Below, piece by piece: positions 26,786-48,772 of a stretch of 60,932 nucleotides of DNA (the stretch's first letter is position 1; each line of letters starts with the position of its first letter). The stretch spans positions 1 to 60,932 of the forward strand of contig CACGHX010000004.1 in NCBI GenBank assembly GCA_902573065.1, given 5' to 3'. Position numbers and translations under genes: made by a program. Source of the DNA: an uncultured Pelagibacteraceae bacterium (lineage in GTDB: Bacteria > Pseudomonadota > Alphaproteobacteria > Pelagibacterales > Pelagibacteraceae). Under the pieces are notes generated by a model. The model was not told the origin of the DNA. It searched no databases and saw only the letters and a list, made by a program, of their open reading frames with translations.

Positions 26786-26797
26786 TTTTCAATATAT

Positions 26798-27469
26798 ATG
26801 AATTACTTAGAATTTTATAAATGGTTTGATAAATTGTCTCCAAAATTACAAATTAGGAAGGAAGCTTTTTACAAAATCTTTAAGTATTTAGATAGCATGC
26901 CTGATCCAATTATTATTGTAGAAACTGGCTGCTTAAGGATTAAAGATAATTACCTAGATGGCCAAAGTACACTTTTGTTTGATAAATATACACAATTTAG
27001 AGACAAAAATTCAAAAGTCTTTACTATGGATATAGATCCAAAAGCTACAAAAGTTTGCTCTGAAAATGTTAGTAAAAATGTTTTAATTCATACTGGAGAC
27101 AGTGTTGAACATTTGAAAAAATTAACAAAAGAATTTATTTTAAATAAAATTAACGTTTCATTATTTTATCTTGATAGTTTTGATTGTAATTGGAAAGATT
27201 TAAAACAATCTTCTGAACACCATTTAAAAGAATTTCAGAGTATTCAAAAAATTCTAAAAAAAGACACTTTACTTGTCGTCGATGATTCACCAATAGTAGG
27301 ATACTTCCAGCAAACTGGATTAAAAAATAATTTTAATCTTATTAATCCTGGTCTTGTTCCTGCCCCAACTATTTCAGGGAAAGGGGGTCTCGTTCATCAA
27401 CATGCAATACGAGCAGGTGCAAAAATGTTATTTTCAAACTACCAAACTGGATGGATCGGATTTAATTAA
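26798..27469 (+). CDS. Class I SAM-dependent methyltransferase-like protein
   Basis: A 223-residue Rossmann-fold protein. IIIVETGCLR (about residues 38-47) fits SAM motif I, FTMDID (75-80) the acidic end of strand 2, and LFYLDSFD (about 118-125) the motif III region; a later LLVVDDSP resembles the metal-binding acidic pair of cephalosporin-hydroxylase/class I methyltransferases. The length is short, and no extra domain is visible. It follows the sugar O-methyltransferase gene by 12 bp and ends 80 bp before a tRNA gene. The substrate is unknown; with its neighbour it may modify surface glycans. Confidence 0.58.
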   Translation: MNYLEFYKWFDKLSPKLQIRKEAFYKIFKYLDSMPDPIIIVETGCLRIKDNYLDGQSTLLFDKYTQFRDKNSKVFTMDIDPKATKVCSENVSKNVLIHTGDSVEHLKKLTKEFILNKINVSLFYLDSFDCNWKDLKQSSEHHLKEFQSIQKILKKDTLLVVDDSPIVGYFQQTGLKNNFNLINPGLVPAPTISGKGGLVHQHAIRAGAKMLFSNYQTGWIGFN

Positions 27470-27549
27470 ATTATGTTTTAATGCTTTTAAAACAAATAAT
27501 TTACAATGTTGCCTGGCTCTAAAAAGTAATGTAAACACTTAATTGTTAG

Positions 27550-30358: not shown

Positions 30359-30823
30359 ATGTTTTTGTCAAGTTACGAGAACAAATTAGACAAAAAGGGA
30401 AGGGTGTCAGTGCCATCAAGTTTTAGAGCATATCTAAATTCTATGGGCTATAACGGATTTATTACATATCCCTCCTTTAATCATTCAGCATTAGATGGAT
30501 GTGCGCAAGATAGAATTGAAAAATTATCAGAAAGCATCGACTCTCTCGGTCCATTCGAAGACAAAAGAGATTATTTTGCCACTTCTGTTTTGTCAGAGAG
30601 TGTCAATCTGAATTTTGATAGTGAGGGAAGAGTATCTGTACCTGAAAAATTATTACAGCATGCAAAAATTAAATCCAATATAGTTTTCGTTGGACTGGGC
30701 AAAGTCTTTCAAATGTGGGATCCAAAATTATTTACAAATTTTAAATCAATAGCTAGAAAAAAATCTTATTTAAATAGATCTGCGCTTAAGTGGGATAATA
30801 AATTTAAAAAGGAGGGTGTATGA
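30359..30823 (+). CDS. mraZ: Transcriptional regulator MraZ
   Basis: A 154-residue AbrB-like DNA-binding protein with two SpoVT/AbrB half-domains, each with the DxxxR motif: DKKGRVSVP near residues 11-19 and DSEGRVSVP near 87-95. MraZ forms rings and represses the dcw cluster from repeats at its own promoter, which are visible 38-63 bp upstream of this start. The ATG at 30359 gives the canonical N-terminus (FLSSYENKLD). Its stop overlaps the ftsZ start as ATGA, so ftsZ takes the second place normally held by rsmH. Confidence 0.95.
   Translation: MFLSSYENKLDKKGRVSVPSSFRAYLNSMGYNGFITYPSFNHSALDGCAQDRIEKLSESIDSLGPFEDKRDYFATSVLSESVNLNFDSEGRVSVPEKLLQHAKIKSNIVFVGLGKVFQMWDPKLFTNFKSIARKKSYLNRSALKWDNKFKKEGV
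30811..30816 (+). promoter_or_regulatory. Strong Shine-Dalgarno sequence of ftsZ
   Basis: GGAGGG ends 3 bases before the ftsZ ATG at 30820, inside the last codons of mraZ. It is a near-perfect anti-16S match, whereas most neighbouring cluster genes show little or no such sequence; it may set high FtsZ output from a shared mRNA. Confidence 0.6.
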
Positions 30824-32298
30824 CAATAAATATCGGTGGTGGAGAATTAAAAGAACTTAAACCAAGAATTTTAGTAATGGGTGTTGGCGGCGCTGGTGGA
30901 AATGCAATTAACGCAATGATTGAAGACGGAATGCAAGGTGTAGAGTTTGTGGCGGTAAATACAGATGCACAAGATCTTAAAAATAATAAAGCTGATGCAA
31001 AAATTCAAATCGGAATGAATTTAACAAAAGGACTTGGTGCAGGTGCTAAGCACGACATTGGTCAAGCAGCTGCTGACGAATCTCTCAATGAGATAGTAAC
31101 ATATTTACAAGGTGCTAACATGGTTTTTATAACTGCTGGTATGGGCGGGGGAACTGGAACTGGTGCATCGCACGTAATCGCAAGAGCAGCAAAAGAATTG
31201 AATATTCTTACTGTTGGAGTAATAACCCTTCCTTTTTCATATGAGGGACCAAAAAGGATGAGAAGAGCTCATGATGGTTGGGCTCATTTAAAAAAACATC
31301 TTGATGCATCTATAGTTGTTCCTAATCAAAATCTTTTTAAAATTGCGAATGAAGCAACCACATTTGAAAATTCTTTTTTACTTTCGAATAATGTACTTAA
31401 ACAAGGTGTAAGAAGCATTACTGACTTAATGGTTCGACCAGGTTTAATTAACTTAGATTTTGCAGATGTCGAAACAGTTATGAGTTCAATGGGTAAAGCA
31501 ATGATGGGTACTGGAGAAGCTGAGGGAGAAAATAGAGCTTTAGCAGCAACCGAGTCAGCTTTGAACAACCCTTTAATTGATGATTATTCGCTAAAAGGTG
31601 CTAAGGGGCTATTAGTAAATATTACTGGTGGTGATGACATTAAATTATTCGAGGTGGATCAAGCAGTAAATAAGATCAGATCGGAAGTCGATCCCGAAGC
31701 TGAATTAATATTTGGAGCCATTAAGGATGAAAGTTTAAGTGGAAAAATGAGAGTTTCGATTGTTGCAACAGCTTTAGATGGAGAAGCTCCTGAAACAAAG
31801 TCTGTAGTTAATATGGTACATAGAATAAATAACAGAAACCATGGTTACTCCGAAAGTAATTTTTCTACAAGCAGTAATATCGTTCAATCTTCACCTAGTT
31901 TAGATTCTATTCAAGGCGCAACAGCTTTAAAATTAGATGATGAAATAAAAACAGAACAAGAAACTTTAAATGAGAATAAACAGGAAATAAATACTCAGAC
32001 AAATTTGGATTCCGGAATATCTCTTGATAGCGCCTCTTATTTTGAAAATAACTTTAATCAAGAACAAACTCATAAAGATGAAGTTCAAGAGGAAGTAATA
32101 ATTGATGATATTTCAATTTATGAAGAAAAACCTATTGAAAACACAGAGATGAATTCTATTAAAGAAGAAGGTTTTCCCCAGTTATTTTCCGATGAAGCAA
32201 AAAATCAAACTCCATCGGAAGATAACAATAGAGAAGACATGAAAAACGAGGAAGAGGAATTCGAAATACCTGCGTTTTTACGTAAACAAAAATTTTAA
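30820..32298 (+). CDS. ftsZ: Cell division GTPase FtsZ
   Basis: This tubulin-like protein assembles the Z ring. The GTP-binding G-box is GGGTGTG at residues 109-115, with VGGAGGNA at 22-29 and NTDAQ at 47-51. The globular part ends near residue 320, followed by a long acidic linker (about 320-475). The C-terminal peptide EFEIPAFLRKQKF is the site that binds FtsA and other partners, and it is intact. The 492-residue length is within the alphaproteobacterial range. It lies between mraZ and rsmH instead of after ftsA, and overlaps mraZ by 4 bp. Confidence 0.98.
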   Translation: MTINIGGGELKELKPRILVMGVGGAGGNAINAMIEDGMQGVEFVAVNTDAQDLKNNKADAKIQIGMNLTKGLGAGAKHDIGQAAADESLNEIVTYLQGANMVFITAGMGGGTGTGASHVIARAAKELNILTVGVITLPFSYEGPKRMRRAHDGWAHLKKHLDASIVVPNQNLFKIANEATTFENSFLLSNNVLKQGVRSITDLMVRPGLINLDFADVETVMSSMGKAMMGTGEAEGENRALAATESALNNPLIDDYSLKGAKGLLVNITGGDDIKLFEVDQAVNKIRSEVDPEAELIFGAIKDESLSGKMRVSIVATALDGEAPETKSVVNMVHRINNRNHGYSESNFSTSSNIVQSSPSLDSIQGATALKLDDEIKTEQETLNENKQEINTQTNLDSGISLDSASYFENNFNQEQTHKDEVQEEVIIDDISIYEEKPIENTEMNSIKEEGFPQLFSDEAKNQTPSEDNNREDMKNEEEEFEIPAFLRKQKF

Positions 32299-33634: not shown

Positions 33635-35356
33635 ATGAAAAAAATACCAAAAAATCAGAACCAAAGGAGTTTTTATTTTAATGAATATAATCAAAATATA
33701 TTTAATGAGAAAAAAAATAATAATTTAAATATAAATCAAGATAGAGTGTATGTACTTTTTTTTATATTTTTTTGTTTAATATTTATATTTGCTATAAAAA
33801 TCTTTTTTGTTTCTCTTAAAACTTACGACTCAGAAAATTATTTGAAAAGTTATAATAATTTTAAACCACTAAGAAATGATATTGTAGATAGAAATGGAGA
33901 TTATATTGCCAGAAATATTCCAGTTTATCATGTAGCAATAAAACCAAAGTTAATTAAGGATAAAAAAAAATTTATTATTAAACTCAAGTTACTCGATACA
34001 ACACTTGATTATAAAAAAATAGAAAATAAATTAAAAAAAAACAGTTATTTTTATTTGAAAAAAAATCTCACATTAGATGAAAAAAATAAATTTTGGTCAT
34101 TAGGTGAAAAAGGTTTAATTTTTGAGATTACACAAACAAGAATTTATCCCCATAAAAATTTATTTAGCCATGTCCTAGGTCAAATTGATATTGATAATAA
34201 TGGAATTTCTGGAATAGAAAAATTTTATGATACCGACCTTAAAAAAAATGATAATCAATCAATTCACTTATCTCTAGATACAAATTTACAATATTTGATA
34301 AGAGAGGAACTGCTTAAGTCTCTTTCAACTTTTCAATCAAAGGGAGCAGCAAGTCTTTTGATGGACGTCAATACTGGTGAAATATTATCTTTAATTTCTT
34401 TACCTGATTATAATCTTAACTTAAGACAAGATTTAAAAGACAAAAATTTTACAAATAAAATAACAAAAGGTGTTTTTGAACTAGGTTCTATTTTTAAAAC
34501 ATTTACTTTAGCTTTAGCCATTGAGAATGATTTATATTCTCCAAGCACAATTATTAAAAATATACCTGATAAAATTCAATGTTCAAAATTTACAATCAAT
34601 GAGCATGATGAAATGCCAAGCGATCTGACTTTAAAAGAAATTTTAGTTAGATCTTCTAATATTGGAACTATCAAAGTTGCTAGGAGTTTAGGTGAAGACA
34701 AACTTAAAAATTTTTTGGAAGATTTAAATTTATTAAATAAAATTAATTTAGAATTAAATGAAATTGGATCCCCATTAAAATTTTTATGGAATAAATGTAA
34801 GTTAGAAACAGTATCGTATGGTCACGGAATAACAACTACTCCTTTGCAGGCGGCATCAGCTTACGCATCAATAACTAATGGTGGCATAGTTGTTAATCCA
34901 ACACTTATAAAAAATAAAACTATGAATTCTAAAACAAAAAGGATTGTAAGTTTAAAAACTAGCAAAAATATAAATAATATGTTGCGAGAGGTCGTAGTTA
35001 GTGCAGATGGAACTGCGTCATTAGCTGAAGTTAATGGTTATTATGTTGGAGGAAAAACTGGAACAGCAAATAAGAATATTAATGGTGAATACACCTCGAA
35101 AAAATTAACATCTTTTATTTCTGTTTTTCCAACAAACGATCCTAAATATTTATTATTAACATTAATAGACGAACCTAAACCAGCACCTGAGCTTGTTTAC
35201 AATTATAGAGGAAAAAAAATTTCAGGAATACACAGAAATGAGTCCGGTTGGAATTCTGCTTATGTTGCTGGCAAAATTATAGAGAAAATTGGTCCTATTT
35301 TAGCCATAAATAAAAACGATTTTTATGACAACTATGTTGTTAAAAAATCTGATTGA
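33635..35356 (+). CDS. ftsI: Septal peptidoglycan transpeptidase FtsI (PBP3)
   Basis: A class B penicillin-binding protein of 573 residues that cross-links septal peptidoglycan with FtsW. One transmembrane helix lies at about 38-60, then the dimerisation domain starting LRNDIVDRNGDYIA. The transpeptidase motifs are Ser285-x-x-Lys288 (SIFK), Ser340-Ser-Asn342 and KTGT at 474-477. Start at ATG 33635, two bases after ftsL. The 3' end overlaps the murE-murF fusion by 32 bp. Confidence 0.97.
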   Translation: MKKIPKNQNQRSFYFNEYNQNIFNEKKNNNLNINQDRVYVLFFIFFCLIFIFAIKIFFVSLKTYDSENYLKSYNNFKPLRNDIVDRNGDYIARNIPVYHVAIKPKLIKDKKKFIIKLKLLDTTLDYKKIENKLKKNSYFYLKKNLTLDEKNKFWSLGEKGLIFEITQTRIYPHKNLFSHVLGQIDIDNNGISGIEKFYDTDLKKNDNQSIHLSLDTNLQYLIREELLKSLSTFQSKGAASLLMDVNTGEILSLISLPDYNLNLRQDLKDKNFTNKITKGVFELGSIFKTFTLALAIENDLYSPSTIIKNIPDKIQCSKFTINEHDEMPSDLTLKEILVRSSNIGTIKVARSLGEDKLKNFLEDLNLLNKINLELNEIGSPLKFLWNKCKLETVSYGHGITTTPLQAASAYASITNGGIVVNPTLIKNKTMNSKTKRIVSLKTSKNINNMLREVVVSADGTASLAEVNGYYVGGKTGTANKNINGEYTSKKLTSFISVFPTNDPKYLLLTLIDEPKPAPELVYNYRGKKISGIHRNESGWNSAYVAGKIIEKIGPILAINKNDFYDNYVVKKSD

Positions 35357-38174
35357 TAACTTAAATTCTAAAATTAGTAATTTAAAGATTAGAAAGATAT
35401 CATCAGATAGCAGAAAAATTCAAAAGGGCGATTTATTTGTTTCTATTAAAGGAAACAAATTAGATGGTAATAAATTTATTGATCATGCAATTTTAAAAGG
35501 AGCAAAAGTTGTAGTTTATTCAGGTTTAATAAAGAAAAAGTATAAAAATATCACTTACATCAAAACAAAAAATACTAGAGAGAAACTCGCAGAAATTTCA
35601 TCAAAATACTTCAAAAAAAAACCAAAAAATATTATTGCTGTTACAGGCACAAATGGCAAAACATCAGTATCAGATTTTTTTCACCAAATTTTTACACTGA
35701 ATAATAAACCTGTGGGACTTCTTGGAACCTTGGGGTTTAAAAAAAATAATAATTTAAAAAAAAGACAATTAACTACTTTAGATTCATTAAATCTTCATAA
35801 AGATTTAGAAGAAATGAAAAAATCAAAAATAGACAACGTTATTATTGAGGCATCAAGCCATGGCCTTATTCAAAATAGATTAGATTTTTTAAATATTAAA
35901 TCAGGCATTTTTACAAATTTAAGCCATGATCACTTAGATTATCATAAAAATATGAAAAATTATTTTTCAGCGAAGTTAATTTTATTTAAAAAATTACTTA
36001 AAAAAAAATCGACAATTATTACAGACTCAGAAATTAAGGAATATCAGGTTTTTAAGCGATTACAAAAAAAGAAAAACTTAAACTTGCAAAGTATAGGCAA
36101 TTTTGGAAATACTTTTAAAATTTTAAATCATAGAATTTTTAATAATTATCAATTTATTAAAATCTTACATAATAAAAAAAAATATAATTTAAAAATAAAT
36201 TTAATTGGATCAATTCAAATAAAAAACTTACTCATGGCTATTTTAGCTTGCAAAATTTGTGGTTTAAGTATCCAAAATATATTTAGAGTTATAAATGAAA
36301 TTAAAAGTGTAAATGGAAGGTTGGAATTTATTAGATCTTTACCAAATCAATCAAAGATTTTTTTAGATTATGCTCATACACCTGAAGCATTAAAAAATGC
36401 AATAATTTCTCTTGAGGAACATTTTAATAAAAAAATAACCGTCATTTTTGGTTGTGGTGGTGAGAGAGACAAGTCAAAAAGAAAAAAAATGGGAGAGATA
36501 GTAAATAAATTATGTGAAAAAATCATAGTTACTGATGACAACCCAAGAAATGAAAACCCATCTAAAATTAGAAAACAAATTCTTAAAGTAATAGATGAGG
36601 GTAAAGCAAGAGAAGTACCTGATAGAAAAAAAGCAATCACTTTTGCATTAAAAAATTCTAGTCCATATGAAATTATTTTAGTAGCCGGAAAAGGTCATGA
36701 AAATTACCAAAACTTAGGAAAAAAAGAAATTTTTTTTAGTGATAAAATAACAATTAAGAAAGTTAATTTAGGAAAAATAAGCAACAAAAAAAATCAATTA
36801 AAATATAACGATAATATATTAAATAAAATATTGAAAAATAAAAAAGAAAATCTTTTTTCTGGCGTTTCAATAAATTCAAAAACAATTAAAAAAAATAATT
36901 TATTTATTGCAATTAAAGGCAAAAATAAAGATGGGCATAATTTTTTAAATCAGGCAATGGGTAAAGGTGCAAATTATTGTGTTGTTTCAAAAAATGTCAA
37001 AAAAAAATTTAAACCGATTAAAGTAAAAAATACTTTCAATTTTCTAAAAACTTTCTCCATAAAGAAACGGGAGTTATCCTCAGCAAAATTTGTAGCTATT
37101 ACAGGAAGTGCTGGCAAAACATCATTAAAAACCATGTTAGGAAATTTATTAAAATTATACTCAAAAACTTACTTTTCACCGCAATCATACAATAACCACT
37201 ATGGGGTTCCGTTAAGTTTATCTAATATTGAACCTGAGCATAACTTTGGAGTATTTGAAGTTGGAATGAATAAATTTAATGAAATTCATAAACTCTCTTC
37301 AATTTTAAAACCAGACATAGGTATTATTACAAATATTTCTGAAGCACATTTAGAAAACTTTAGACACATTTCTGACATAGCTAAAGCAAAAGGTGAAATT
37401 ATTCATAATATTAAAAAAAATGGGCTAATAATTCTTAATCGTGATGATAAATTTTTTAATTTTCACTGTAAAATAGCCAATAAAAAAAATATTCTAATTA
37501 AATCCTTTGGATATTCCAAAAATGCTGATTTTAAATTTTTAAATACTAAGAAAATCAAAAATAATTTATTTCTTAATGCATCTTTAGAAGGAGAGAAAAT
37601 ATCTTTACCTATTAATAATTCTAATAAAAATTTTATTATGAATATACTTTGCTGTTTAGCAGTGCTAAGTTATTTAAATTTAAATACTAACAATATTCAA
37701 AAGTTTTTTAAAAATCAAAAACCTTTAAAAGGGAGAGGAAAAATTAAAAAAGTAAAAAGGTTTGGTAAAACTTTTTATTTAATTGATGAAAGTTATAATG
37801 CAAATCCTTTGTCAGTTAAAACAGCTTTAGAAAATTTTTCAAATATAAGAAAAAATGGGAAGAAAAAGTATTTCTTTTTTGGTGACATGATGGAATTAGG
37901 AAGTAAATCACATATTTACCACAAAAAAGTTACAAATTTTATTAATAAAAGTGATATTGATAAAACTTATGTTTATGGAAAAAGGGCGTCTAAAGCATAT
38001 AAATTTATCAAGAAAAATAAAAGAGGTGAACTTATTAATAATTTTGAGAAATTCGATAAAGTTATATCGAAAATTTTGAAAAACGGAGATTATTTAATGA
38101 TAAAAGGATCAAACGCAACAAAACTTTACACAGTTTCTGACAATTATTTAAAAGGTACACAAAATGCTTTATAG
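35325..38174 (+). CDS. murE-murF: MurE-MurF fusion: two Mur ligases in one polypeptide
   Basis: One uninterrupted 949-residue frame holds two complete Mur ligases. The MurE half (1 to about 483) has the P-loop TGTNGKTS (107-114), DYAHTP (349-354) and DNPR (405-408), the motif for meso-diaminopimelate. The MurF half (about 495-949) has its own P-loop TGSAGKTS (593-600), [12 protein letters not shown], and [17 protein letters not shown]. The bifunctional protein would add meso-DAP and then D-Ala-D-Ala to the UDP-MurNAc peptide, a single track from dipeptide to pentapeptide. The start is at 35325 (or an ATG three codons on); it overlaps ftsI by 32 bp and mraY by 11 bp. Confidence 0.96.
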
Positions 38175-45029: not shown

Positions 45030-45962
45030 TTGCTTAAAAAAAAAAAAATTTTAGTTGTATTAGGTGGAATATCAAAAGAAAGGGCTATTAGTATAGACAC
45101 AGGTCTGTCTTGTATTAAAGCATTGAAAAAATTAAAATATAAAATTATTAAATTTGATCCTAAATTTTCTCCAATCACTGATATTAAAAAAAATAAAGCA
45201 GACATAATTTTTAATGCACTACATGGAAAAGGTGGCGAGGATGGAACAATTCAAAGTTTTTTTGAATACATAGGATTACCTTACACTCACTCAGGTCCTG
45301 TTTCATCTATGCTTGCTATGAATAAATATTTTTCTAAAAAAATATTTATCAAGAATAAAATCATTACACCTAAATATTTTTATTTAAATAAAATAAATTT
45401 TTCAAATGTAGACCTTAAAAAAGAAATAAAAAAAAACAAACTTAAATTTCCAATAGTATTAAAACCAAACCAGGAAGGTTCTAGTATTGGCGTAAATATC
45501 TGTAAAAATTATAACCTTTTAAATAGTTCATTTAGAAAACTTAGAAAAAAATACGATGATTTAATTTTTGAAAGTTATATACCTGGAAAGGAGATACAAG
45601 TTGCAAATATTGGTAATAATGCTATTGGCGCTATAGAACTTCAACCTAAAAGAAAATTTTATGATTATGATGCAAAATACAAAAAATCATCTAAAACAGA
45701 ACATATTATGCCCGCTGATATTTCAAAAAAAAAATATAGGGAGGTTCTAAAAATATCTGAGAAAGCCTATAAAATTTTAAAATGCAAAGGTATTGCTAGA
45801 TGTGATTTTAGATTTTACAAAGACAAATTTTATTTACTGGAGGTAAATACACAACCTGGCATGACTAGTTTATCTTTAGTTCCAGAAATAGCAGCTTATA
45901 AGAATATTTCTTTTACTAAACTAGTTAAATGGATGGTAAATAACGCAAGTCTAAATAGATGA
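45030..45962 (+). CDS. ddl: D-alanine-D-alanine ligase; TTG start
   Basis: A 310-residue ATP-grasp ligase making D-Ala-D-Ala for MurF. Segments include VLGGISKERAISIDTG at the N-terminus, NALHGKGGEDGTIQSFFEYIGLPYTHSG, VLKPNQEGSSIGV, and EVNTQPGMTSLSLVPEIA. No ATG is available before the conserved N-terminus; TTG at 45030 is two bases past the murB stop and is followed by a run of 13 A, so the start depends on this homopolymer being read correctly. The stop overlaps ftsQ as ATGA. Confidence 0.94.
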   Translation: MLKKKKILVVLGGISKERAISIDTGLSCIKALKKLKYKIIKFDPKFSPITDIKKNKADIIFNALHGKGGEDGTIQSFFEYIGLPYTHSGPVSSMLAMNKYFSKKIFIKNKIITPKYFYLNKINFSNVDLKKEIKKNKLKFPIVLKPNQEGSSIGVNICKNYNLLNSSFRKLRKKYDDLIFESYIPGKEIQVANIGNNAIGAIELQPKRKFYDYDAKYKKSSKTEHIMPADISKKKYREVLKISEKAYKILKCKGIARCDFRFYKDKFYLLEVNTQPGMTSLSLVPEIAAYKNISFTKLVKWMVNNASLNR

Positions 45963-46633
45963 AAAAAAAGAATATTTTTTTTTGGTTTTTTCTTTTTATA
46001 TTATTAACTACCTTTTATTTTGATTTTAATAAAACTAGATTAGCAGAAACTTTTAAAATTAAAAAAATAGAGATTCAAGGAGTAGAAAATGCAGATATAA
46101 ATTTATTAAATCTAAGATTGGAAAAATTTAAATATAATAATTTTTTTTTAATAAATCGACGTCAAATAGCTTCCTCTATAATTGATATTGATTTCATCAA
46201 CAAAGTTTTAATAAAAAAAATATATCCTGATAAAGTTCAGATAAAAATAAAGGAACATAAAATTATAGGTATTATTACAAACAATAACAATAAATATATT
46301 TTAAGCGAAGAGGGAATAATTATAAAAAAATACGATAAAAAATTTGAAAATTTACCAGTAATTTACGGTAAAGAAGTTCAAATTTTTTTTCCTCAATTTT
46401 ATGAAATTCTTAAAGAAACAAATTTTGATTTAAATAAAATCGAATTTCTAAAATATTTTGATACAAACCGGTGGGATATATTTCTCAAAAGTGGTAGACT
46501 AATAAAACTTCCAGGCAACGAATATGAAACTAAGCAATCTATATCCAAATTTATGTCAATTAGTAAAGACGAAAAATTTGATAAATTTAAAATATTTGAT
46601 TTTAGAGTAAAGAATCAATTAATAATAAAGTAA
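45959..46633 (+). CDS. ftsQ: Cell division protein FtsQ
   Basis: A 224-residue bitopic protein: a basic N-terminus, one transmembrane segment at about 6-22, then a POTRA domain (FKIKKIEIQGVENADINLLN) and the FtsQ beta domain with YPDKVQIKIKEHKIIGII and NKYILSEEGIIIK. It is somewhat short. FtsQ links FtsA/FtsZ to FtsL-FtsB and the FtsWI synthase. It overlaps ddl by 4 bp and is followed by ftsA after 6 bp, the classic ddl-ftsQ-ftsA order. Confidence 0.9.
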   Translation: MKKKNIFFWFFLFILLTTFYFDFNKTRLAETFKIKKIEIQGVENADINLLNLRLEKFKYNNFFLINRRQIASSIIDIDFINKVLIKKIYPDKVQIKIKEHKIIGIITNNNNKYILSEEGIIIKKYDKKFENLPVIYGKEVQIFFPQFYEILKETNFDLNKIEFLKYFDTNRWDIFLKSGRLIKLPGNEYETKQSISKFMSISKDEKFDKFKIFDFRVKNQLIIK

Positions 46634-46639
46634 AAAACT

Positions 46640-47524
46640 ATGGATGAAAAATTAATTATAGAATTAGACAATGACAAAATTAAGTATGCAGTTTTTAAAA
46701 CGAATGAAGAACTAGATTATAAATTATTAACAAATAAAATTTCAAAAAATGCAGGAATTAAAAAAGGAAAAATTCTTGATTTTGAATATTCATCAAAAAT
46801 TATAAGTAACGACCTTCATGAAATTGAAAAAAATGTTAATAAAATTTTTAAAAGTATATCGGTTGTTTTGAATCAAAAAGATGTATTTTGTACAAACCTA
46901 TGTGGTTTTAAAAAATTAAATGGTTCAAAAGTTGAGAAAAGGGATTTAGATTACATTTTAAATGAAGCAAAAAATTCTATTTCTAAAAACCAGAAAAATA
47001 ATTCTATAATACATATTTTGAATTCTAATTTTATTTTAGATAAAACAAAACAAGATAAAGCACCATTAAACATATTTGGGGACCATTTAAGTCTACACAT
47101 GACTTTCGTTTCTATACCAGACAATAATTTAAAAAATATAAAAGAGATTTTTAATAATAGTGATTTAAAAATTGATAGAATAATAAGCAAACCTTTTGCT
47201 GAAAATATTAATTTCCTAAATGTAAATAAAAAATTAAAAAATTTTATAACAATAAATATTGGAAATGAGCTTTCAACTATATCTTTATGTCAAAATTCAT
47301 CTCTAGTTTTCTTTAAAACTTTCCCTTTTGGGTCTAATTCAATTTATAGTGATATAAATCAACTTTGCTCTTTATCAAAAGATGAAGCAAAGACAATTAT
47401 TGAAAATTTAGAAAATAGTAAATCAATATATATAGATAGGAAATTTTTCGTTAATTCAGATTATAAAAAAATAAGTTTAAAACATTTTAAAGAAATAATT
47501 GATGTTAGATTTAAATTATTATGA
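46640..47524 (+). CDS. ftsA: FtsA, N-terminal part (about 294 residues); frame ends early
   Basis: Position after ddl-ftsQ and before lpxC identifies this as FtsA, the actin-like membrane tether of FtsZ, although the sequence is very divergent. Where FtsA normally has the phosphate loop DIGTSK, this reads IIELDNDKIKYAVFK; the second phosphate region FITININ-type (FITINIGNELSTISL) lacks the usual acidic Asp and Gly-Gly. The frame stops at TGA 47522-47524 after EIIDVRFKLL, just where the last quarter of the actin fold should follow. That missing part is present in the +1 frame (next entry). A sequencing indel, real frameshift or recoding are all possible. Confidence 0.72.
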   Translation: MDEKLIIELDNDKIKYAVFKTNEELDYKLLTNKISKNAGIKKGKILDFEYSSKIISNDLHEIEKNVNKIFKSISVVLNQKDVFCTNLCGFKKLNGSKVEKRDLDYILNEAKNSISKNQKNNSIIHILNSNFILDKTKQDKAPLNIFGDHLSLHMTFVSIPDNNLKNIKEIFNNSDLKIDRIISKPFAENINFLNVNKKLKNFITINIGNELSTISLCQNSSLVFFKTFPFGSNSIYSDINQLCSLSKDEAKTIIENLENSKSIYIDRKFFVNSDYKKISLKHFKEIIDVRFKLL

Positions 47525-47774
47525 GAAAAAAATTGGAAAAATAAATATTTTTTTTGAAGATGTTGATATTTATAAAAATTTGGGTGAAATATTTAAAAGT
47601 TACATAGATCTTAATGATAGAAAAATTCTTGTTGAGAATTTCACCGACAATGACCTCGGGACACTTTATGGAGCAGCTGAATTAATATTTAAAGGCTGGC
47701 CCAATGAGGCTTTACCTTTCTCTATTAAAAAAAAGTCAATAATATCAGGTTTTTTTGATCGTTTTTTTAACTAA
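47502..47774 (+). CDS. ftsA: FtsA, C-terminal part in the +1 frame
   Basis: About 90 residues in the +1 frame relative to the preceding ftsA part, overlapping it by 23 bp. YGAAELIFKGW near residue 55 matches the end of the actin fold, and the last residues SIISGFFDRFFN look like the amphipathic helix with which FtsA binds the membrane. The ATG at 47502 lies in the overlap, but no Shine-Dalgarno sequence is seen, so separate translation is not favoured. Joined with the N-terminal part it gives about 378 residues, close to a short FtsA. No ftsZ follows; lpxC begins 65 bp later. Confidence 0.62.
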   Translation: MLDLNYYEKKIGKINIFFEDVDIYKNLGEIFKSYIDLNDRKILVENFTDNDLGTLYGAAELIFKGWPNEALPFSIKKKSIISGFFDRFFN

Positions 47775-47839: not shown

Positions 47840-48772
47840 ATGTGGGATAAATATCAAAAAACACTTAACAGTGAAACGAGCTTTTCAGGAATTGGATTAC
47901 ATTCTGGTATAAAAGTTGACGTTACATTAATTCCAGGCAATTCAAATTCAGGAATAGTTTTTAAGAGAACAGATTTAGAAAAAGACAATGAAATTGTCGC
48001 TAATTTTAAAAATGTCTCTTCAGCAAAATTGTGTACTAAAATTGAGAATAATCATGGCATAAGTGTTTCAACTATAGAGCATTTACTTGCAGCGTTTTAT
48101 GTGTGTGGAATTGATAATATTATTGTTAATTTAAATGGACCTGAAGTTCCTATTATGGATGGTTCAGCAAAAGAATTTGTAAAGATTATAAATGAGATAG
48201 GGTTAAAAACACTTGAAGGCAAAAGGAAGTTTGTAAGAGTCAAAAAAAGTGTTGAGTTGAAAAAAGAAGATGGGAGATCAATAAGTGTAAAACCGTCAAG
48301 CCAAACTTTTGATGTAAAGTTTACATTAAATTACAAAAAAAACCCTTTAATTAAAACACAAGTAAATAAAATAAATTTTGCAGAAAAAAATTTAGAAGAT
48401 ATCGTAGATGCAAGGACTTTCTGCTTATATGAAGATATAGAGATGATAAAATCAATGGGACTTGCAAAAGGAGGAAGTTTAGATAACGCTATAGTTGTTA
48501 AAGGCAATCAAGTTTTAAATAAGGGTGGACTTAGATCTAAAACAGAATTTGTAAATCATAAAATACTCGATCTAGTCGGGGATTTCATGCTTTCAGGGAC
48601 TAGATTAATCGGTTCAGTAGAATGTTTTCATGGTGGCCACGCTTTGACTATTGAATTCTTAAAAAAGATTTTTTCTAATAAAAACAACTATGAAGTTGTA
48701 GAAAGTCATTCTTTATTCTCTAATGTAAGAAAAATCATTCCTCTTAATAAGAGATTTGCTATAAACGCTTAA
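47840..48772 (+). CDS. lpxC: UDP-3-O-acyl-N-acetylglucosamine deacetylase LpxC
   Basis: This zinc enzyme performs the first committed step of lipid A synthesis. The 310-residue length is right. The zinc ligands are visible as His in STIEHLLAAFY near residue 77 and the HKILDLVGD motif (His and Asp) near 234-240; SGIGLHSG near the N-terminus and ARTFCLYEDIEM are LpxC-type, and FHGGHALTIEF contains the catalytic-site His. It shows that the organism makes LPS. Normally ftsZ lies between ftsA and this gene; here only 65 bp do. Confidence 0.97.
   Translation: MWDKYQKTLNSETSFSGIGLHSGIKVDVTLIPGNSNSGIVFKRTDLEKDNEIVANFKNVSSAKLCTKIENNHGISVSTIEHLLAAFYVCGIDNIIVNLNGPEVPIMDGSAKEFVKIINEIGLKTLEGKRKFVRVKKSVELKKEDGRSISVKPSSQTFDVKFTLNYKKNPLIKTQVNKINFAEKNLEDIVDARTFCLYEDIEMIKSMGLAKGGSLDNAIVVKGNQVLNKGGLRSKTEFVNHKILDLVGDFMLSGTRLIGSVECFHGGHALTIEFLKKIFSNKNNYEVVESHSLFSNVRKIIPLNKRFAINA

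Follow-up and report, generated by a model that had tools for sequence, protein, structure and literature searches.

A 41-bp deletion at the split ftsA frame of an uncultured Pelagibacteraceae assembly and the loss of nucleotide motifs from the FtsA of its SAR11 genus

We analyzed a stretch of 60,932 nucleotides from an uncultured Pelagibacteraceae genome (hereafter the window), in which the gene occupying the place of the cell-division gene ftsA is divided between two overlapping reading frames. Comparison with the relatives reveals that the gene lacks 41 bp, and that the split, which follows from this loss, is probably a lesion private to this one assembly; in all likelihood it does not reflect the biology of the organism. 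With such a private deletion behind the broken division gene, neither recoding nor a two-part FtsA should be built on the split. The second result is the loss of the nucleotide motifs from FtsA, a protein that elsewhere serves as the membrane tether of FtsZ. The alignments bear this loss out as a genuine trend across the order Pelagibacterales, most pronounced in the genus to which the window belongs.

The split reading frame and the deletion at its junction

The 5′ part of ftsA (46640..47524, + strand) is an open reading frame of 294 codons that ends in a TGA at 47522-47524 and covers subdomains IA, 1C (SHS2) and IIA, the frameshift cutting off the C-terminal end. The 3′ part (47499..47774, + strand) lies in the +1 frame, which opens immediately upstream of TTG 47499, has either this TTG or ATG 47502 as a possible start and stops at 47772-47774; it comprises the C-terminal part of the actin-like fold along with the putative amphipathic tail GFFDRFFN. 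The overlap of the two frames, counted from ATG 47502, amounts to 23 bp. As a reference for comparison we used the closest genome, AG-426-L15 (G009; 93% identical), whose ftsA is one frame of 393 codons. The 5′ part is 93% identical to this gene (E = 1e-169) and the 3′ part is 90% identical to its residues 304-391 (E = 1.5e-51); since both align inside the same continuous frame, the second frame of the window is not a chance ORF. The SHS2_FTSA profile (PF02491) recognizes the 5′ part with 34.8 bits (cut-off 25.4), and the 3′ part by itself has no Pfam match. Thus, the original prediction of an ftsA split over two overlapping frames, with a TGA at 47522 and a 23-bp overlap, had the coordinates right, and both parts are homologous to one ftsA.

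Seventeen genomes of the genus have ftsA as a single frame, uninterrupted by stops and about 390-407 codons long, and in an 18th it runs into the end of a contig. Most of these relatives are uncultured Pelagibacteraceae known from single amplified genomes with AG- names; the gene is also intact in JAGFWA01 and PBAM01, which are titled as ordinary MAGs. The contig PBAM01000039.1 (L137) is titled Acidimicrobiaceae and carries ftsA together with the neighbourhood typical of this SAR11 genus; it is probably mislabelled or contaminated. Protein searches of the window's own assembly, which is 73.7% complete, found no second ftsA, the gene being present as a single copy; a stronger match to the Pfam domain PF14450 on another contig of this genome (C8) showed no match to ftsA in these searches.

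DNA alignments with the reference and four more relatives show that the window's ftsA is without 41 bp of the reference gene between 47506 and 47507. In both the pairwise and the multiple alignments an AGA microhomology marks the junction (47507..47509, + strand); because the junction falls inside this 3-bp direct repeat, there are four equivalent alignments and its position is ambiguous by 3 bp. The deletion is the only out-of-frame indel relative to the reference in about 8.5 kb around ftsA, and it is not a homopolymer slip. Some 14 codons, about 290-303 of the reference protein, are lost with it, corresponding to the second half of a helix spanning residues 280-299 in the predicted model and the loop that follows it; this helix is conserved and belongs to subdomain IIB. 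The missing segment lies between two AGA trinucleotides, and its absence both takes out these codons and shifts the frame by +1. As read, the gene would encode an FtsA of 294 residues that lacks the C-terminal quarter, the putative membrane-targeting tail included, leaving the separate frame of 91 codons as a remnant. An assembly indel, the closest of the four options originally offered for the split, therefore needs amending in kind: the change is not the gain or loss of one base but a deletion of 41 bp with a 3-bp microhomology.

Two of the other options would make the split functional. The 23-bp overlap and the conservation in sequence of both frames could speak for programmed +1 frameshifting at TTA-TGA-G, with a full-length FtsA made from the two frames. 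However, this site and the overlap exist because of the 41-bp deletion, through which alone the TTA-TGA-G context comes into frame; no relative has the overlap, the 17 congeners having one frame where a recoding site would call for a conserved overlap and slippery sequence. Moreover, the shifted product would still be short of about 14 residues of the helix 280-299 and its loop, and with that much of a conserved helix missing recoding could not restore FtsA; we consider it extremely improbable. The same holds, to the same degree, for two separately translated and interacting FtsA halves with a restart at ATG 47502. This ATG indeed shares the reading frame of the 3′ part and precedes the first stop by 20 bp, but the same out-of-frame ATG occurs by chance in the reference gene, within the codons ATT-AAT-GTT; none of the sister genomes is split at this place, and the missing helix would sit right at the join between the halves.

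Constraint on ftsA and the origin of the deletion

The fourth option, a frameshift in a gene under weak constraint, is at odds with the substitution pattern. Between the window and the reference, the two parts of ftsA have dN/dS values of 0.079 (5′) and 0.163 (3′), both inside the range of 0.01-0.19 seen for most neighbouring genes (three outliers with omega of 0.8 or more were ignored and attributed to in-frame stops in upstream extensions that the aligner dropped). When the changes are assigned to branches, the 5′ part has 6 nonsynonymous and 10 synonymous changes on the window branch versus 7 and 11 on that of the reference, and the 3′ part has none of either kind versus 2 and 2; there is thus no excess of amino-acid changes in the window. 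Pairs of intact ftsA genes give values of 0.05-0.15, similar to murC, ddl and lpxC. These comparisons show that ftsA is under purifying selection, with neither decay nor acceleration on the window branch. With no sign of relaxed constraint, the deletion is either extremely recent or absent from the organism.

Of about 52 genes in the window that were compared with the reference genome, ftsA alone is frame-split. A genome-wide comparison, which covered about 705 kb of this genome and about 868 kb of the reference, recovered 3 frame-split genes among the 558 tested in the former versus 4 of 569 in the latter, i.e., a similar background of about 0.5-0.7%; all four in the reference are split by one base. 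Frame splits elsewhere in the window's genome affect a PLP-dependent decarboxylase-type gene (contig C21, 3885-5100; a 2-bp deletion) and a 3-dehydroquinate-synthase-type gene (contig C6, 33907-35020; one additional base in an A run).

Across the genus, the ftsA frame is broken in 3 of the 20 genomes where the gene can be judged, namely that of the window (G000), G013 and G019. Such a count could be taken to mean that ftsA is decaying genus-wide, the split in the window being one of several independent losses. However, murC (G011, G013 and G030), ddl (G013, G019 and G023) and a 489-aa AT-rich gene (G013, G018 and G021) are each broken in three congeners, which is as often as ftsA, so that breakage is not a property of ftsA. 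In G013 (L131, AG-916-O22), the breaks are eight one-base insertions, mostly in A runs, which are spread over about 6 kb from murC to bamD and disrupt several neighbouring genes, the genes outside this stretch being intact; this looks like a sequencing or amplification error pattern confined to a local patch of a single-cell assembly. As the breaks are not specific to ftsA, and as intact pairs display purifying selection at the level of the essential neighbours, we rejected decay of ftsA in the genus, which we regard as very unlikely. In another locus (L143, AG-435-M21), frame breaks are limited to the adjacent ddl, ftsQ and ftsA.

We also considered the base composition of the locus. The ftsQ-ftsA stretch, with 20-22% G+C, is among the most AT-rich of the window. 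No frame breaks were found in lpxC, which is intact in all 24 genus genomes where it was found, or in ligA across the genus, both of which are G+C-richer. Another AT-rich gene is often broken, yet murC, with 26% G+C, is broken equally often; a link between low G+C and frame breaks is accordingly only suggestive, and low G+C was set aside as the cause. Likewise set aside was a coverage hole that would produce an excess of contig breaks at ftsQ-ftsA: the stretch from ddl to lpxC is interrupted in 6 of 24 genomes, but the ligA control, which is G+C-richer and of similar length, is interrupted in 4 of about 22.

On balance, we favor with some confidence an origin of the 41-bp deletion during whole-genome amplification or assembly and not in the cell. 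We infer from its relatives that the window's assembly is itself a single amplified genome. In a study of E. coli, 85% of the chimeras formed in multiple displacement amplification (MDA; n = 475) were inverted; direct-orientation joins of segments less than 10 kb apart made up 11 of the 475, and 90.9% of such joins had matching bases of 2 bp or more (PMC1855051). Further, with WGA-X, a thermostable variant of the procedure, deletions at the level of reads were found to be slightly more frequent than with standard MDA (PMC5519541). A direct 41-bp deletion with a 3-bp match fits what MDA can produce, though it is not the commonest type, and it differs from the one-base indels of the sister genomes.

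The microhomology at the junction also fits replication slippage, and a slipped-strand or end-joining loss between the AGA repeats could have inactivated ftsA very recently in the sampled cell or strain. Such a cell would be one that was failing to divide or one able to divide without full FtsA. The flanks are clean, with no further out-of-frame indel over the same 8.5 kb or so, and a recent event would not be expected to leave an excess of substitutions. Nevertheless, the genus keeps ftsA under purifying selection, neither a second ftsA nor SepF turned up in this 73.7% complete assembly, and it is unlikely a priori that a sampled living cell would carry a null allele of a division gene. Hence, we deem a genuine deletion a possible but considerably less likely source of the lesion than an artefact of amplification or assembly, with very little probability left for anything besides these two.

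Nucleotide motifs of FtsA across the Pelagibacterales

The loss of the nucleotide motifs, which had been predicted from the window alone, was confirmed genus-wide by alignment; it is of old standing in the genus and has no connection with the split. Alignment with close relatives, proposed as a check on the original prediction, yielded one continuous frame in 17 congeners and nucleotide motifs that are lost across the genus. Defining the motifs as [DE]IG-x-x-K for phosphate-1, D-I-G-G-G for phosphate-2 and GG or GxG for the adenosine motif, we found none of the three in the genus. Phosphate-1, EIGTAK in E. coli, reads for example ELDNDK or EIAEDK; phosphate-2, VDIGGGT in E. coli, reads INIGNEL(S) or INFDKEV(S); and the adenosine motif, LTGGAA in E. 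coli, reads IFFEDI or LFFEDK. An invariant glutamate, E8, aligns with E14 of E. coli, which is important for FtsA function (PMC10213515), and the residue aligned with D210 of E. coli is mostly N.

The erosion extends beyond the genus. The GGG of phosphate-2 is lost in all examined genera of Pelagibacterales (G031-G049), with further stepwise loss in some: three sister genera (G034, G035 and G036) keep DIG or DLG in phosphate-1 and have GRGS, GEGS or GGGS in the adenosine motif, and Pelagibacter has DIRADK and GYG in these positions. Scores against the FtsA equivalog model TIGR01174 (cut-off 175.85 bits) fall in step with the loss of motifs, from 241, 214 and 178 bits in the three sister genera through 173 in Pelagibacter to 122 in the intact reference; the 5′ part from the window, at 118 bits, likewise lies below the cut-off, and PF14450 gives 23.8 bits versus a cut-off of 31.8. 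A literature search, with most subscription journals outside its coverage, returned no paper on motif loss in SAR11 FtsA.

Losing the motifs need not mean that the protein no longer binds nucleotide. In the intact relatives, FtsA would most likely act as the membrane tether of FtsZ and, given the three lost motifs, it would probably do so without an ATP cycle. That one SAR11 genus has strongly conserved an FtsA minus all three motifs as a pseudo-actin tether of FtsZ working without an ATP cycle, the end of a stepwise erosion in the order, is a proposal for which we see evenly balanced chances. If true, a working FtsA free of a nucleotide pocket would separate tethering from ATP-dependent polymerization. 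The in vivo function of E. coli FtsA depends on residues surrounding the pocket (PMC10213515), and a natural nucleotide-free FtsA would test the generality of this requirement. The sister genera with more intact motifs provide a ready-made comparison set.

The division locus, the FtsA fold and comparison with known systems

The gene order murC-murB-ddl-ftsQ-ftsA-lpxC is shared by the window and its relatives, which puts ftsA in its usual place after ftsQ in the division and cell-wall cluster. Directly upstream is ftsQ (45959..46633, + strand), intact relative to the reference, and directly downstream is an intact lpxC (47840..48772, + strand), both read as ORFs. The core of ftsZ (30859..31803, + strand; TIGR00065, 378 bits) lies in the same cluster about 15 kb upstream of ftsA. 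The translation of 30808-32298 ends in the canonical FtsA-binding tail EEFEIPAFLRKQKF, and the tail EIPAFLRKQ is kept in FtsZ of both the window and the relatives. A displaced ftsZ had been read as a hint of altered divisome control; a distance of about 15-16 kb is, however, the usual arrangement in those relatives from the genus and the order that have both genes on one contig. A search of 46 genomes from the order for SepF, a potential replacement tether, gave no match.

Two further observations concern this part of the window. MurE and MurF appear to be encoded by one fused ORF of 949 codons (35325-38174), and searches with it match open frames of 949-954 codons in several congeners, which suggests that the fusion is common in the genus. 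In addition, about 700 bp (26792-27493) have no alignment to the matching contig of the reference genome and lie between two long collinear blocks.

An AlphaFold model of the intact FtsA of the reference genome (mean pLDDT 75.8) has as its best PDB matches only FtsA structures, with Z scores of 25-28.5, followed by PilM at 21.6. The match to 7q6g (Z 28.5, rmsd 4.9 over 348 residues) indicates that the protein has the FtsA fold from end to end, subdomain 1C included, and the SHS2 domain (PF02491) was matched in 13 of 13 relatives. The sequence of the C-terminal tail, KKKSIISxFFERFF, is conserved, and the model makes it a helix at low pLDDT; in the window the tail is out of frame. As the fold, the SHS2 domain and the gene position are those of FtsA, while the equivalog score is below the cut-off and the motifs are missing, we call the product a divergent FtsA-type protein; it is the FtsA counterpart of this lineage, and we do not claim for it the biochemistry of FtsA.

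Compared with FtsA of E. coli, Xenorhabdus and Vibrio (7q6d, 7q6g and 7q6f), the protein of this genus has in common the actin-like fold with a 1C (SHS2) subdomain, the place of its gene after ftsQ, a putative C-terminal amphipathic tail and an FtsZ with the canonical tail EIPAFLRKQ. It differs in a sequence identity of only 13-16% and in being without the three nucleotide motifs, the copy in the window additionally having the 41-bp deletion. The FtsA proteins of Pelagibacter and the sister SAR11 genera (G034-G036 and G043) share the locus layout and a partly eroded phosphate-2; unlike this genus, G034-G036 have kept the DIG of phosphate-1 and the GxG of the adenosine motif, and pass the TIGR01174 cut-off. 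The actin-like fold of PilM from type IV pili (2ych and 5eou) is related and likewise contains a 1C-type domain (Z about 20-21), but PilM is set apart from SAR11 FtsA by its lower structural score, its different gene neighbourhood and its lack of a link to FtsZ.
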